Shown here in pieces: positions 3,320 to 52,780 of a stretch of 64,000 bases of DNA. The stretch's first letter is position 1; each line of letters starts with the position of its first letter. This stretch comes from Rhodoplanes sp. Z2-YC6860 (GTDB lineage: Bacteria; Pseudomonadota; Alphaproteobacteria; Rhizobiales; Xanthobacteraceae): contig NZ_CP007440.1 of NCBI RefSeq assembly GCF_001579845.1, positions 372,001 to 436,000 of the forward strand, written 5' to 3'. The notes beneath the pieces were generated by a model. That model was not told where the DNA came from, ran no database searches, and was given only the letters and a program-made list of their open reading frames with translations. Position numbers and translations under genes: made by a program.

Positions 3320-3342
3320 GTCGATAAGCTTAGCTTATCGAC
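3320..3342. promoter_or_regulatory. palindromic operator in the katG-oxyR divergent promoter region
   Basis: An inverted repeat with 11-nt arms, GTCGATAAGCT and AGCTTATCGAC, separated by one T. It contains an ATAAGCT-T-AGCTTAT core of the T-N11-A type bound by LysR-family regulators. It ends at the base before the oxyR ATG and lies about 115 bp upstream of the katG start. OxyR binding with autorepression is an inference from position and symmetry. Confidence 0.65.
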
Positions 3343-13107: not shown

Positions 13108-14718
13108 TCAGCGTCTTGTATCTTCCAGCACCATGTCGGCGCCCTTCTCGGCGATCATGATGGTCGCCGCGTTGGTGTTGCCCGACACCACCATCGGCAT
13201 GATCGAGGCGTCGATCACGCGCAGGCTTTCAAAGCCACGGACGCGCAGCCGCTCGTCGACCACGGCTTTGTCGTCCTGGCCCATGCGGCAGGTGCTGACC
13301 GGATGATAGACCGTCGAGCCGCGGCGCCGCACATAATCGAGAATGTCGTCGTCGGTGGCGCAGGGCGGGCCTGGCTCGAACTCTTCCGCAATGTGCCGTG
13401 CCATCGCCGGCTGCTGCACGATGCGCCGCAGCGCTTTGATGCCCTCGACCATGGTGTCGCGGTCGCGCTGGGCCGCGAGATAGTTCGGATGGATCGCCGG
13501 CGCGTCGGTTGGATTGGCCGACTTGATGCGCACCCAGCCGCGACTTTCCGGCCGCAGCAGCGTGCATACGCCGGTGACGGCCGAGAACGGATGCAGCGCA
13601 TCGCCGATGTTCTGCACGGAATAAAGCGCCAGCGAGCACTGCACGTCGGGTGTCGCCGATGACGGCAGCGCGCGAAGGAAGCAGCCGGCCGACAGCGCCG
13701 GGATCGCGAAATAGCCGCGCCGGAACAGCGCATAGCGGAACACGGCCGCGGCGCCGCGATGCCATTGCCGCACGGCGTCATTGAGCGACAGCGGCTCCTT
13801 GCAACGCAGGATCAGCCGCGCGAAATAGTGGTCGTTGAGATTGTCGCCGACGCCCGGCATGTCGGCGATCACCGGGATGCCGAGCGGCGAGAGCAACGAA
13901 GCCGGGCCGAGCCCGGACAATTGCAGAAGCTGCGGCGAATTGAATGCGCCGGATGTGACGATCACCTCGACATTGGCGCGCACGATGCGCGTCTCGCCGC
14001 CGGCCGTGTATTCGACGCCGACGGCGCGGCGGCCTTCGAATAGGATGCGTGTCGCAAGCGCTTGCGACACCACCTTGAGATTTTCTCGATTTCGCGCCGG
14101 ATCGAGATAGGCGACCGCTGTCGATGAGCGCACGCCGTGGCGTGTCGTGGTCTGATAGAAGCCCGCGCCCTCCTGCTGCGCGCCGTTGAAGTCGTCGTTG
14201 CGCGGATAGCCGCACTGCTGTGCGGCTTCGACATAAGCCTTCGCGAGCGGATGCTGGTCGCGCAGGTCGGAGACGCCGAGCGGGCCGCCGGCACCGTGAA
14301 GCGCATCCGCGCCGCGCTCGTTGTCCTCGGCCTTGCGGAAATAGGGCAGCACGTCGTCTGCGCCCCAGCCGGTGTTGCCGAGCTGGCGCCAGTGGTCGAA
14401 GTCCTCGGCCTGGCCGCGGATGTAAATCAGTCCGTTGATCGAGCTCGATCCGCCCAGCACTTTGCCGCGCGGCGCGATCACGTTGCGGCCGTGACATTCA
14501 GGCTGCGGCTCGGTCGTGTAGAGCCAGTTGAAGCGGCGGTCGGTGAACAGCTTGCCGTAGCCGAGCGGAATGCGGAGCCACGGATGGCGGCTGTCGGGTC
14601 CGGCTTCGAGCAGCAGGACGCGGTGGCGGCCCGACGCGGTGAGGCGGTTGGCCAGCACGCAGCCGGCGCTGCCGGCGCCCACGATGACGAAATCGCAGGC
14701 TTCCGAATTGTCGTTCAT
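13108..14718 (-). CDS. GMC-family FAD oxidoreductase (choline/alcohol dehydrogenase type)
   Basis: 536 aa. The N-terminal FAD-binding motif DFVIVGAGSAGCVLANRL is intact, as are the two GMC signatures: GKVLGGSSSINGLIYIRG and VTSGAFNSPQLLQLSGLGP. The C-terminus carries HPVSTCRMG and SGNTNAATIMIAEKGADM, which contain the paired catalytic His/Asn region. Family members oxidise primary alcohols including choline; no betaine-aldehyde dehydrogenase or transporter is nearby, so the substrate is not assignable. The gene sits between ubiB and coaBC, which are normally neighbours in related genomes, so it looks like an insertion. Its 5' end faces the coaBC operator. Confidence 0.88.
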   Translation of the reverse strand: MNDNSEACDFVIVGAGSAGCVLANRLTASGRHRVLLLEAGPDSRHPWLRIPLGYGKLFTDRRFNWLYTTEPQPECHGRNVIAPRGKVLGGSSSINGLIYIRGQAEDFDHWRQLGNTGWGADDVLPYFRKAEDNERGADALHGAGGPLGVSDLRDQHPLAKAYVEAAQQCGYPRNDDFNGAQQEGAGFYQTTTRHGVRSSTAVAYLDPARNRENLKVVSQALATRILFEGRRAVGVEYTAGGETRIVRANVEVIVTSGAFNSPQLLQLSGLGPASLLSPLGIPVIADMPGVGDNLNDHYFARLILRCKEPLSLNDAVRQWHRGAAAVFRYALFRRGYFAIPALSAGCFLRALPSSATPDVQCSLALYSVQNIGDALHPFSAVTGVCTLLRPESRGWVRIKSANPTDAPAIHPNYLAAQRDRDTMVEGIKALRRIVQQPAMARHIAEEFEPGPPCATDDDILDYVRRRGSTVYHPVSTCRMGQDDKAVVDERLRVRGFESLRVIDASIMPMVVSGNTNAATIMIAEKGADMVLEDTRR

Positions 14719-14781: not shown

Positions 14782-14809
14782 ATGATTGCATTGATTTCAA
14801 TGCAATCAT
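14782..14809. promoter_or_regulatory. 28-bp inverted repeat, candidate operator of coaBC
   Basis: Perfect dyad with 13-nt arms, ATGATTGCATTGA (14782-14794) and TCAATGCAATCAT (14797-14809), around a central TT. It lies 33 bp upstream of the coaBC ATG between two divergent genes, so it is not placed like a terminator, and it covers the -35 element of the promoter at 14791-14819. Because coaBC encodes a FitA-type ribbon-helix-helix domain, autoregulatory binding is the natural inference. Confidence 0.7.
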
Positions 14810-14819
14810 TTTCTACATT
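14791..14819 (+). promoter_or_regulatory. predicted sigma-70 promoter of coaBC
   Basis: TTGATT (14791-14796), a 17-nt spacer, then TACATT (14814-14819). Transcription would start near 14826, leaving a short leader with GAGGG just before the ATG at 14843. The -35 box is inside the inverted repeat. Confidence 0.5.
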
Positions 14820-14842
14820 GGGCCGGATATGAGGGTTTCCGC

Positions 14843-16258
14843 ATGGCCAGCCTCACGGTCCGGCAGCTCGACGAGCGTCTGAAGAAGCTTCTCCGCCTGC
14901 GCGCCGCGAAAAACGGCCGCTCGGTCGAGGACGAGGTGCGCACCATCCTGCGCGGCGCCGCGGAGGAAACCGGCCTGGCGGCGCTCGACATGATCAATCC
15001 GCCGAACGCCCGTCAGGCGAAAGCCGGCGCGCGCGAGGATGATCCGTCCGTCGGCGCGAGGCGCGTGCTGCTGATCATCGGCGGCGGCATTGCGGCCTAC
15101 AAATCGCTCGATCTGATCCGGCGGCTGCGCGAGCGCGGGCTGTCGGTGCGCGTCGTCATGACCGAGGCGGCGCAGAAGTTCATCACGCCGCTGTCGGCCG
15201 GCGCGATCAGCGGCGAGCATCCCTACACGGATCTGTTCGACACCAAGCTCGAGCTTGACGTCGGCCACATCCGATTGGCGCGCGACACGAGTGCCGTGAT
15301 CGTCGCGCCGGCCACGGCCGACCTGATGGCCAAGATGGCGAACGGCCACGCCGACGATCTCGCCTCGGCGGTGCTGCTTGCGACCGACAAACCGGTCCTG
15401 CTCGCGCCGGCGATGAATCCCAAGATGTGGTCGAACAAGGCGACCGCGCGAAATCTTTTGCAGCTCAAGGCCGATGGCGTGTCCTTCATCGGTCCCAACG
15501 CGGGTGAAATGGCCGAGAGCGGCGAGGCGGGCACCGGCCGCATGGCCGAGCCGCTCCAGATCGTGGCGGCCGCCGAAGCGCTGCTCGCGCCATCCGCGCC
15601 GGCGCTGAAAGGCCTCAGGATGATCGTCACCTCGGGTCCGACGCATGAGCCGATCGATCCGGTGCGCTATATCGCGAATCGTTCGTCGGGCAAGCAGGGC
15701 CACGCCATCGCCGAGGCTGCGGCGCGCGCCGGTGCGCATGTCACGCTGGTGTCCGGCCCGGTGAATATTCCCGATCCACCGGGCGTGAATATCGTGAGGG
15801 TGGAAAGCGCGCGCGACATGCTGGCCGCTGTCGAGAAAGCGCTGCCTGCCGATATCGCGGTGTTCGCGGCCGCCGTCGCCGATTGGCGCACCGCCCACAA
15901 CAGCCGCGAGAAGATCAAGAAGACCGGCAAAGGCACGCCCGAACTTGAGTTGATCGAAAATCCCGACATCCTCTCGACCGTGGCGCATCGCAAGACCAAA
16001 CGGCCGGCGCTCGTGATCGGCTTCGCCGCGGAAACGCAGCACGTCATCGAGCACGCCAAGGCCAAGCTCGCGCGCAAGGGCTGCGACTGGATCCTCGCCA
16101 ATGACGTGTCACCCGAAACCGGCATCATGGGCGGCGACAGCAACACCATTCATCTCGTCACAAAGACCGGTGTCGAGGACTGGCCACCTCAATCGAAAAC
16201 CGAAGTCGCGGCCGCGTTGATCGAGCGCATTGCCGCGGCGATGAGCGAGAAACCGTGA
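14843..16258 (+). CDS. coaBC: CoaBC (phosphopantothenoylcysteine synthetase/decarboxylase) with N-terminal FitA-type RHH domain
   Basis: Flavoenzyme making 4'-phosphopantetheine from phosphopantothenate and cysteine in CoA synthesis. Residues 1-45 ([15 protein letters not shown]...[19 protein letters not shown]) match the ribbon-helix-helix of FitA-type antitoxins (MAS-V-R-L..., AxGRSxExEIRxIL). A 25-residue linker leads to the CoaC half with [11 protein letters not shown], His142 and PAMN (Asn192). The CoaB half has [30 protein letters not shown] and KIKK (357-360). The usual Cys-containing substrate clamp (ACGE/D) reads AESGE (224-228), without Cys. GAGGG-type spacing supports the ATG at 14843; the next internal ATG (14990) lacks a Shine-Dalgarno sequence. 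The stop overlaps the dut start by 4 nt (GTGA). Confidence 0.93.
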
Positions 16259-16749
16259 GCACATCGAAGATCGAATTGCAGATTGAATTGCAGGTGATGC
16301 GGTTGCCCCACGGCGCCGACCTGCCGTTGCCGGCCTATCAGAGCGAAGGCGCCGCGGGCCTCGATCTGATGGCCGCGGTGCCTGAGGACGCGCCGGTGAC
16401 GCTGGCTGCGGGCCGGCGCGCGCTCATCCCGACGGGCCTGTCGATTGCGCTGCCTCAAGGCACCGAAGGCCAAGTCCGGCCGCGCTCCGGGCTGGCGGCG
16501 CGCCACGGCATCACGGTGCTCAACACGCCGGGAACCATCGATTCGGACTATCGCGGGGAACTCCAAGTCATCCTGGTGAATTTCGGGGAGGACCCGTTTG
16601 TGGTGACGCGAGGACTGCGGATTGCTCAACTCGTCGTCGTGCCTGTGTTGCATGCGCGGATTACGGAACAAAAAAAGCTGGATACAACCGAGCGAGGGGC
16701 GAAAGGTTTTGGCTCTACAGGCCAACGACTAATTGACAAGACGAGGTAG
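16255..16749 (+). CDS. dut: dUTP diphosphatase
   Basis: Hydrolyses dUTP to dUMP and pyrophosphate, keeping uracil out of DNA and supplying thymidylate synthesis. 164 aa from GTG, overlapping the coaBC stop by 4 nt, so translationally coupled. The five trimeric dUTPase motifs are readable: [54 protein letters not shown] and the C-terminal arm [11 protein letters not shown]. Confidence 0.96.
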
Positions 16750-29568: not shown

Positions 29569-29603
29569 GAAATGGCCGGCGAAATGCCGGCCATTTCGTT
29601 TTT
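29569..29603 (+). terminator. intrinsic terminator of trxA
   Basis: 12-bp perfect stem GAAATGGCCGGC / GCCGGCCATTTC with loop GAAAT, followed by GTTTTT. It lies 22 nt after the trxA stop and 9 nt before the end of the convergent folC gene. Confidence 0.9.
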
Positions 29604-51508: not shown

Positions 51509-51637
51509 CTGTGGGACGCGAAGTTACCGACGCGCGCAGCGAGCGCGCGTCGGATGGACTCGAACCGATTTTCTTGAAGGGTTACGCCGCGCTTGTTTTT
51601 GTTTGGCCGCTCACGCGGCGCTTATTTCTCTTCCCGC

Positions 51638-52177: not shown

Positions 52178-52780
52178 TCAATGGCCCCCGGCGGGCACCG
52201 CCGGAGGATCGATCCAGCCGATATTGCCGTCGGCCCGGCGATAAACCATGTTCACACGGCCGTGGCTGGCATGCCGAAAAACCATGACAGGCGCGCCTGT
52301 CATGTCGAGGTGTGTCACCGCCTCGCTGACCGAGAGCTGCTTCAGCGACGTCGTCTGCTCCGCGATGATCACCGGGTTGAAGGTCGCGACGTCGTCGCTG
52401 TCCTCCTGTCCCGGTGCTGCGATGGTGTAGTCGGACGCAGTCAGCGCGGTTTCGTCCAGTACAGCGCCGTTGCTGCGGCCGTTGCCGTGATAGTCCTTCA
52501 GGCGGCTGTGGTACCGGCGCAGCCGCTTCTCCAGCTTCTCCGCCGCTTGATCGGCGCTGAGATAGGCATCGGCCGCCATCGAGTCGGCACGCAGCACGAT
52601 CCCGGAATCGAGATGCACCACACATTCGGTCTGAAAACCGAAGGCTTCTTTTCCCACGGTCACATGCCCGGAAAATCCGCCGTCGAAATATTTCTCCAAC
52701 GCTTCGAGCACGCGCGCGCTGATGCGTTCACGCAGGGCTTCGCCGACTTCGATGTTTTTTCCGGATACGCGAAAGGGCAT
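52178..52780 (-). CDS. hpf: ribosome hibernation promoting factor, long form
   Basis: 200 aa. The N-terminal S30AE ribosome-binding domain (MPFRVSGKNIEVGEALRERISARVLEALEKYF) is joined by a linker to a C-terminal dimerisation domain (NPVIIAEQTTSLKQLSVSEAVTHLDMTGAPVMVFRHASHGRVNMVYRRADGNIGWIDPP). The long form makes 100S ribosome dimers in stationary phase. Its position directly after rpoN is conserved. Confidence 0.94.
   Translation of the reverse strand: MPFRVSGKNIEVGEALRERISARVLEALEKYFDGGFSGHVTVGKEAFGFQTECVVHLDSGIVLRADSMAADAYLSADQAAEKLEKRLRRYHSRLKDYHGNGRSNGAVLDETALTASDYTIAAPGQEDSDDVATFNPVIIAEQTTSLKQLSVSEAVTHLDMTGAPVMVFRHASHGRVNMVYRRADGNIGWIDPPAVPAGGH

Follow-up and report, generated by a model that had tools for sequence, protein, structure and literature searches.

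The coaBC locus and its upstream dyad

We analysed a 64,000-nt stretch (hereafter the window) of the 8.19-Mb genome of Rhodoplanes sp. Z2-YC6860 (NZ_CP007440.1, positions 372,001-436,000 of the forward strand), in which a coaBC gene encodes a 471-aa bifunctional enzyme of CoA synthesis with a FitA-type ribbon-helix-helix (RHH) domain at its N-terminus (Table 1). We infer that coaBC and the overlapping dut gene belong to the same operon. The neighbours of coaBC are dut and a divergent gene for a GMC oxidoreductase (choline-dehydrogenase-like), so no PIN-domain toxin gene lies beside it, as the first-pass annotation had noted. The GMC oxidoreductase gene sits between ubiB and coaBC. It has in common with coaBC a 124-bp intergenic region, in which the dyad described below lies, and this candidate operator may be shared by the two genes. 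Such an upstream gene is present in only three of 132 loci (the window, L001, as well as L003 and L004), all of them from the genus of the window.

Table 1 Features of the coaBC locus, with positions counted from the first nucleotide of the window
Feature	Position	Strand	Remark
GMC oxidoreductase (choline-dehydrogenase-like)	13108..14718	-	divergent
Candidate operator, 28-bp dyad	14782..14809		13-bp perfect arms, 2-nt centre; by sequence symmetry
Half-site TGATTGCA	14783-14790		sequence
-35-like TTGATT, within the dyad	14791..14796	+	consensus match only
Half-site TGATTTCA	14792-14799		sequence
Half-site TGCAATCA	14801-14808		sequence
-10-like TACATT	14814..14819	+	N17 after -35; consensus match only
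Ribosome-binding-site-like GAGGG	14831..14835	+	7 nt 5' of ATG; sequence
CoaBC ORF	14843-16258	+	471 aa, ATG start
FitA-type RHH domain, residues 1-40	14843..14962	+	Pfam PF22513 at 2-40
Variable linker, residues 41-71	14963..15055	+	relaxed selection
CoaC (Flavoprotein, phosphopantothenoylcysteine decarboxylase), residues 74-243	15062..15571	+	profile match
CoaB (DFP, phosphopantothenate-cysteine ligase), residues 255-438	15605..16156	+	profile match
dut (dUTP diphosphatase)	16255..16749	+	start overlaps coaBC stop by 4 nt

The first-pass annotation had described a single 28-bp dyad lying 33 bp upstream of the ATG over the -35 element of a TTGATT-N17-TACATT promoter. The arms are indeed perfect at that distance, the dyad covers TTGATT and extends into the spacer in front of TACATT, and both promoter elements (by consensus only) as well as the ribosome-binding site are found where they had been placed. 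However, the description as one dyad, correct in itself, is incomplete, since the site consists of three 8-bp half-sites at 9-bp steps. Of 63 aligned sites, 38 have this layout, with six or more of eight matches in each of the two left half-sites; the inner left half-site is present in 61 and the outer left one in 40. In this alignment, which is anchored on one half-site, it is the half-sites rather than the flanks that carry the information, and no conserved T run was found in the flanks of the 63 sites. The operator is located upstream of the predicted transcription start.

Apart from the dyad, no perfect repeat in the 64 kb has arms of at least 13 bp and a loop of up to 6 nt. The dyad was never matched when the intergenic region was shuffled 3000 times, and whole-window shuffles yielded 0.075 such repeats per 64 kb; these two controls rule out a chance dyad. 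The window also holds perfect inverted repeats with shorter arms, of 11-12 bp, at 29569-29597, 3320-3342, 14049-14070, 51527-51553 and 52283-52304.

Conservation of the RHH domain and of the half-sites

The presence of a FitA/VapB-like RHH at the N-terminus of CoaBC, which had been read from the translation, is borne out by the Pfam profile FitA-like_RHH (PF22513, cut-off 27 bits), which scores 53.9 bits at aa 2-40 of the full-length protein and 59.8 bits when aa 1-56 are searched alone. The best phmmer matches of aa 1-56 in the PDB are to FitA (2h1o, E 0.013; 2bsq, E 0.014), and they are weak, although the alignments are colinear starting at residue 2. AlphaFold2 predicts residues 1-56 (mean pLDDT 84.6) with helices at 11-24 and 28-51, as expected for one RHH chain, and DSSP assigned no strand in this single-chain model. 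For the remainder of the protein, Pfam places Flavoprotein and DFP at the residues listed in Table 1, the TIGR00521 coaBC_dfp equivalog profile scores 419.2 bits against a cut-off of 219.7 with both catalytic domains, and residues 4-399 of the 402-residue core align with Mycobacterium smegmatis CoaBC (6TGV). We had considered the absence of the CoaC cysteine present in the E. coli enzyme a peculiarity, and dropped this idea because M. smegmatis CoaBC has no cysteine at the aligned place either.

Translation from an internal ATG at 14990, which the first-pass annotation had raised, is contradicted because the RHH codons evolve like those of the enzyme core, the linker that holds this ATG being relaxed: pN/pS is 0.176 for the RHH, 0.186 for the core and 0.646 for the linker, as uncorrected proportions over 37 pairs of related fused genes, which share members among 34 genes and have protein identities of 0.78-0.985. 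The RHH domain is conserved and under purifying selection, as constrained as the enzyme core, and codon evolution rules out that it is untranslated 5' sequence in front of an internal start. Seven RHH residues (M1, T5, R7, A22, S27, E29 and R33) are invariant in the 34 fused proteins, of which T5 and R7 presumably face DNA, as in other RHH proteins, the register being that of the phmmer alignment to FitA. In FitA, a strand valine contacts a base, according to PMC3325190.

RHH-CoaBC fusions occur through much of the family of the window. Among the best 80 loci, they are found in Bradyrhizobium, Nitrobacter, Rhodopseudomonas, Afipia, Pseudolabrys, Mesorhizobium, Phyllobacterium and Zhengella, and are absent from the loci of Rhizobium, Ensifer, Shinella, Microvirga, Hyphomicrobium, Xanthobacter, Bosea, Parvibaculum and Mesorhizobium denitrificans. 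Profile searches divided 134 CoaBC loci into 90 with the fusion, 39 without an RHH and five with a separate RHH; one of these five (L169) is spaced like a fusion and is probably frameshifted. In the 102-row CoaBC tree the fusions form two main groups, one within a 65-row clade (56 members fused) and one within a 12-row Phyllobacteriaceae-like clade (nine fused), to which L190 is added; the three states require 12 changes on this tree.

We counted the half-site pair TGATTGCA..TGCAATCA as present when at least 14 of 16 positions matched. By this criterion it occurs upstream of 82 of the 89 fused, three of the five separate-RHH and one of the 38 RHH-less coaBC genes (134 loci, two of them too short). 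Thus, the survey of homologues proposed with the first-pass annotation finds domain and dyad together, and the dyad is far from absent upstream of RHH-CoaBC homologues. A smaller collection, which has some loci in common with the former, has the pair in 75 of 85 RHH and 0 of 36 RHH-less regions, with six further loci unassigned to a state and one too short; its RHH regions include the free antitoxin of G111 (L095), and its RHH-less regions include one genome twice (G019, L020 = L109) as well as G082 (L113), the G019 and G082 loci having a separate FitA further upstream. In a check that uses no motif, a perfect 8-1-8 palindrome was found upstream in 39 of the 85 RHH regions and in none of the 36 others, compared with 0.6% and 0.4% in the respective shuffles.

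Ten of the 85 RHH loci fall below the motif threshold. Four of them have another palindrome (L011, L015, L052 and L064), and in the other six (L054, L055, L061, L068, L080 and L081) no convincing palindrome was seen by eye. In the larger collection, seven of the 89 fused loci are below the threshold, as are two toxin-antitoxin loci (G019 and Mesorhizobium sp. J18). Diverged half-sites are still symmetric (TGATATCA, TGATAGCA, TGCTAGCA, TGCATGCA and TGATGGCA), and therefore both halves have changed together. The palindrome ATGGCCGGG-N5-CCCGGCCAT, or a close form of it, recurs upstream of coaBC at L054, L061, L094 and L149 and resembles a dispersed repeat element.

In the window genome, the exact pattern TGATTGCA-N0-12-TGCAATCA has a single site, at coaBC; a regulon beyond coaBC was considered for this genome and rejected, as the pattern without mismatches gives this one site only. 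It is present in 38 of 119 genomes of the family, at one place each (four places were counted twice through overlapping matches), and absent from 81, and the reversed control gave none. By coordinates, 35 of the 38 sites immediately precede an RHH-coaBC or FitA-coaBC locus (in G001 the RHH is at a contig end), and the other three lie before a nitrilase-like gene (G092), between unrelated ORFs (G125) and after an unrelated ORF (G097). The G092 site (L234, 1501-1517) is an exact TGATTGCAATGCAATCA within a longer palindrome, CCGATCTGATTGCAATGCAATCAGATCGG, and the nitrilase-like gene behind it is unrelated to coaBC.

Among loci with at least 500 nt of upstream DNA, a same-strand ubiB gene precedes 73 of the 89 fused loci, 17 of the 38 RHH-less ones and all five with a separate RHH. 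Since ubiB is also found in front of so many RHH-less genes, the contrast in the dyad does not come from the locus alone. Four independent pairs lie on starred branches of the CoaBC tree, and in these the RHH and the dyad go together 3.1 times on average and are never opposed; as there are only four such pairs among these related loci, the phylogeny-corrected support for co-occurrence is not significant (median p 0.25). These counts also bear on the possibility that another transcription factor recognises the dyad, or that the dyad forms an RNA hairpin, with no relation to the RHH. Its position between divergent genes in the window and the three exact sites away from coaBC would fit such a role. 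However, the dyad accompanies the RHH and is missing without it even though ubiB is shared, nearly all exact sites are at coaBC, and the location upstream of the predicted transcription start with flanks free of a conserved T run speaks against a hairpin, so that we consider this explanation quite improbable.

At L006, L008, L010, L014, L050, L051, L078, L095 and other loci, a half-site ends 15-17 nt before the ATG, and in several of them a -10-like TATAAT or GCTA stretch lies in between, which suggests that the coaBC (or fitA) mRNA is leaderless there.

Toxin-antitoxin operons upstream of coaBC

FitA-type antitoxins bind inverted repeats in their own promoters, and the FitA of N. gonorrhoeae reportedly uses a sequence similar to the half-sites found here. 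In relatives, an unfused coaBC follows a whole antitoxin-PIN operon in six cases, a PIN gene in two and a PIN remnant in two. The order in G111 is ubiB, TGATTGCAATGCAATCA, a FitA-like antitoxin, a FitB-like PIN protein (145 aa) and unfused coaBC, with Pfam scores of 70.6 bits for the RHH and 45.2 bits for the PIN domain. Antitoxin, PIN and unfused coaBC are likewise found in Mesorhizobium sp. J18 (by translation only), in G477 with TGACTGCA-T-TGCAGTCA in front, in G305 with two RHH genes, and in G529 and G391. A PIN gene precedes coaBC in G520 and a PIN-like tail, seen by eye, does so in G539; in G019 and G082 the antitoxin is present, but just the two ends of the PIN gene are left. The whole operons directly upstream of unfused coaBC (L095, L296, L297, L309, L319 and L217) come from several lineages. 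At L296 and L319 the PIN stop codon overlaps the coaBC start, and toxin and CoA enzyme may therefore be translationally coupled.

A Mesorhizobium-like RHH-CoaBC fusion in G440 points to how the two proteins may have been joined. Its sequence ..RQELVSGMPLS continues across the region that in G305 separates the PIN stop codon from the start of coaBC (..GQELVSGMILS), and its RHH groups with the antitoxins of J18 and G305 (SH-aLRT 97) in a tree of 40 RHH columns in which L147 and L154 are misaligned. This junction and this grouping give direct evidence, at the sequence level, that the fusion arises by deletion of the PIN toxin gene, and the fusion very probably had two or more origins. Similar half-sites also precede two of ten free RHH-PIN pairs, namely, L267 (TGCTATCA-N12-TGATAGCG) and L256 (TGATATCATGATAGCA), and TGATATCA-like stretches lie in front of L277 and L280; no similar half-site was seen before the other six pairs from the same genomes.

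Measured against a FitA-type antitoxin, the window protein has the RHH and has neither the toxin-binding tail nor an adjoining PIN gene. One might suppose that the RHH survives as an antitoxin remnant, neutralising a PIN toxin elsewhere in the cell instead of regulating coaBC, given that it belongs to the FitA antitoxin family and that G440 has a longer N-terminal stretch before CoaC, which may be an antitoxin tail. However, in none of the 34 fused proteins did we see the tail that L095 and L109, as FitA relatives, possess (..DPIGG..EPPRFDDW); the fused proteins have the variable, relaxed linker in its place, making this role very unlikely.

Putative autogenous control of coaBC-dut

Taken together with the conserved half-sites and the upstream toxin-antitoxin operons, the RHH domain leads us to propose, with a probability of roughly 0.8, that RHH-CoaBC is both a bifunctional enzyme and an autogenous repressor of coaBC-dut, derived from a domesticated antitoxin of the FitAB/VapBC type; its DNA binding and repression are inferred from sequence. 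RHH domains dimerise, and the N-terminal RHHs of neighbouring CoaBC chains would pair into dimers that bind the 8-bp half-sites over the -35 element and spacer of their own promoter and block RNA polymerase. Once enough CoaBC is present, coaBC-dut would be shut down, and CoaBC would in this way limit the synthesis of itself and of Dut. The domain and its operator would stem from FitAB/VapBC-type operons that became positioned between ubiB and coaBC, the antitoxin RHH being joined to CoaBC upon loss of the PIN toxin gene. The activity of the repressor might be set by enzyme occupancy, with CoA thioesters or substrates, or by the dodecameric state; the first-pass annotation had suggested substrate, FMN or oligomeric state. 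According to PMC7794376, M. smegmatis CoaBC is a dodecamer and the mycobacterial enzyme is inhibited by CoA and CoA thioesters; regulation of CoaBC is presented there as this inhibition and not as transcriptional autocontrol.

RHH-CoaBC could also bind the dyad and activate the promoter, or mainly regulate the divergent GMC oxidoreductase gene, as the dyad lies in the intergenic region common to both genes. However, a site over the -35 element and spacer of the coaBC promoter is in the position of a repressor, and the GMC gene is upstream at only the three loci mentioned, in contrast to the prevalence of ubiB and of the dyad at fused loci, so that we give these variants as little credence as a role in toxin neutralisation. 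Least probable of all is that the RHH serves in oligomerisation or nucleoid tethering with no role in transcription, since the dimerisation of RHH domains, including that mediated by the PutA RHH (PMC5293562), explains neither the matching operator nor the invariance of T5 and R7, the residues taken to face DNA.

Autogenous repression by RHH-CoaBC would have precedents, as a small number of enzymes, PutA among them, are known to control their own genes through a DNA-binding domain that they carry. Trifunctional PutA carries an N-terminal RHH on a bifunctional flavoenzyme and is the autogenous repressor of put, and an RHH-less PutA gained DNA binding when the PutA RHH was moved onto it (both from PMC5293562); such domains are therefore portable. 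RHH-CoaBC resembles PutA in having an N-terminal RHH on a bifunctional flavoenzyme, an operator (here by sequence alone) in its own promoter, and expected autorepression, so that it may work like PutA without being one. It differs in that CoaBC acts in anabolic CoA synthesis, that its RHH is of the FitA antitoxin family, and that PutA is a dimer, unlike the dodecameric mycobacterial CoaBC. With FitAB and RHH-type VapBC it has in common the RHH family, half-sites like those before some free FitA genes, and the whole antitoxin-PIN pairs before coaBC in six relatives; unlike in those systems, the RHH is fused to CoaBC, the antitoxin tail is lost, and the window has no toxin gene. Both catalytic domains are as in CoaBC (Dfp) of TIGR00521 and M. 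smegmatis 6TGV, to which about 71 N-terminal residues with the DNA-binding domain are added here.

We found no description of RHH-CoaBC or of its toxin-antitoxin origin in the open-access papers searched, and the words 'Dfp' and 'pantothen' do not occur in the main text of the 2009 toxin-antitoxin survey (PMC2701414). An essential CoA enzyme thus seems to have gained autogenous control by taming a toxin-antitoxin operon, with the whole operon, the toxin remnant and the fusion all existing as living intermediates. Two questions become directly testable, namely, how bacteria use transcription to set CoA synthesis, and what fate awaits an antitoxin regulator once its toxin is lost.

Different N-terminal domains on three CoaBCs of another family hint at convergence. 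A wider proposal, to which we would give slightly less than an even chance, is that coaBC of the Hyphomicrobiales (Rhizobiales) is a recurrent landing place for mobile antitoxin and repressor domains: antitoxin-PIN operons come to drive coaBC, the toxin is then lost, and a DNA-binding domain, with its own repeats ahead of the start codon, is fused to CoaBC, repeatedly and convergently (a FitA RHH at least twice, a Cro/C1 HTH in G299, a third, small domain in G436 and G528), becoming a built-in sensor of CoA supply in which CoA-thioester occupancy would set coaBC-dut transcription. An order-wide search covered 297 genomes, at least 291 of them with a match; match starts were read and 14 places examined further. 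A class-wide sample of 385 genomes, at least 289 with a match, was searched with the N-terminal part of the G528-type fusion, and no DNA-binding domain was seen by eye in the N-termini of 38 of 40 loci from it (the 20 best matches and 20 mostly with long open frames, including two without a motif match and two identical pairs). The following cases from family f16 (28 genomes) are single or double, were seen in passing and are not statistics. G489 has an RHH fusion, by reading. The CoaBC of G299 (L295:1020-2450) carries an N-terminal Cro/C1-type HTH (HTH_3 in Pfam, 26.3 bits against a cut-off of 23), and GGATATATCC occurs twice just before its ATG. G436 (L310:3-680, minus strand) and G528 (L311:1-627, minus strand) have in common a third N-terminal domain of about 60 residues, for which no Pfam (E up to 0.1) or PHROG match and no meaningful PDB match was found; TAGGAT-AA-ATCCTA precedes the ATG in G528 (L311), and TAGGA/TACCT repeats precede it in G436.
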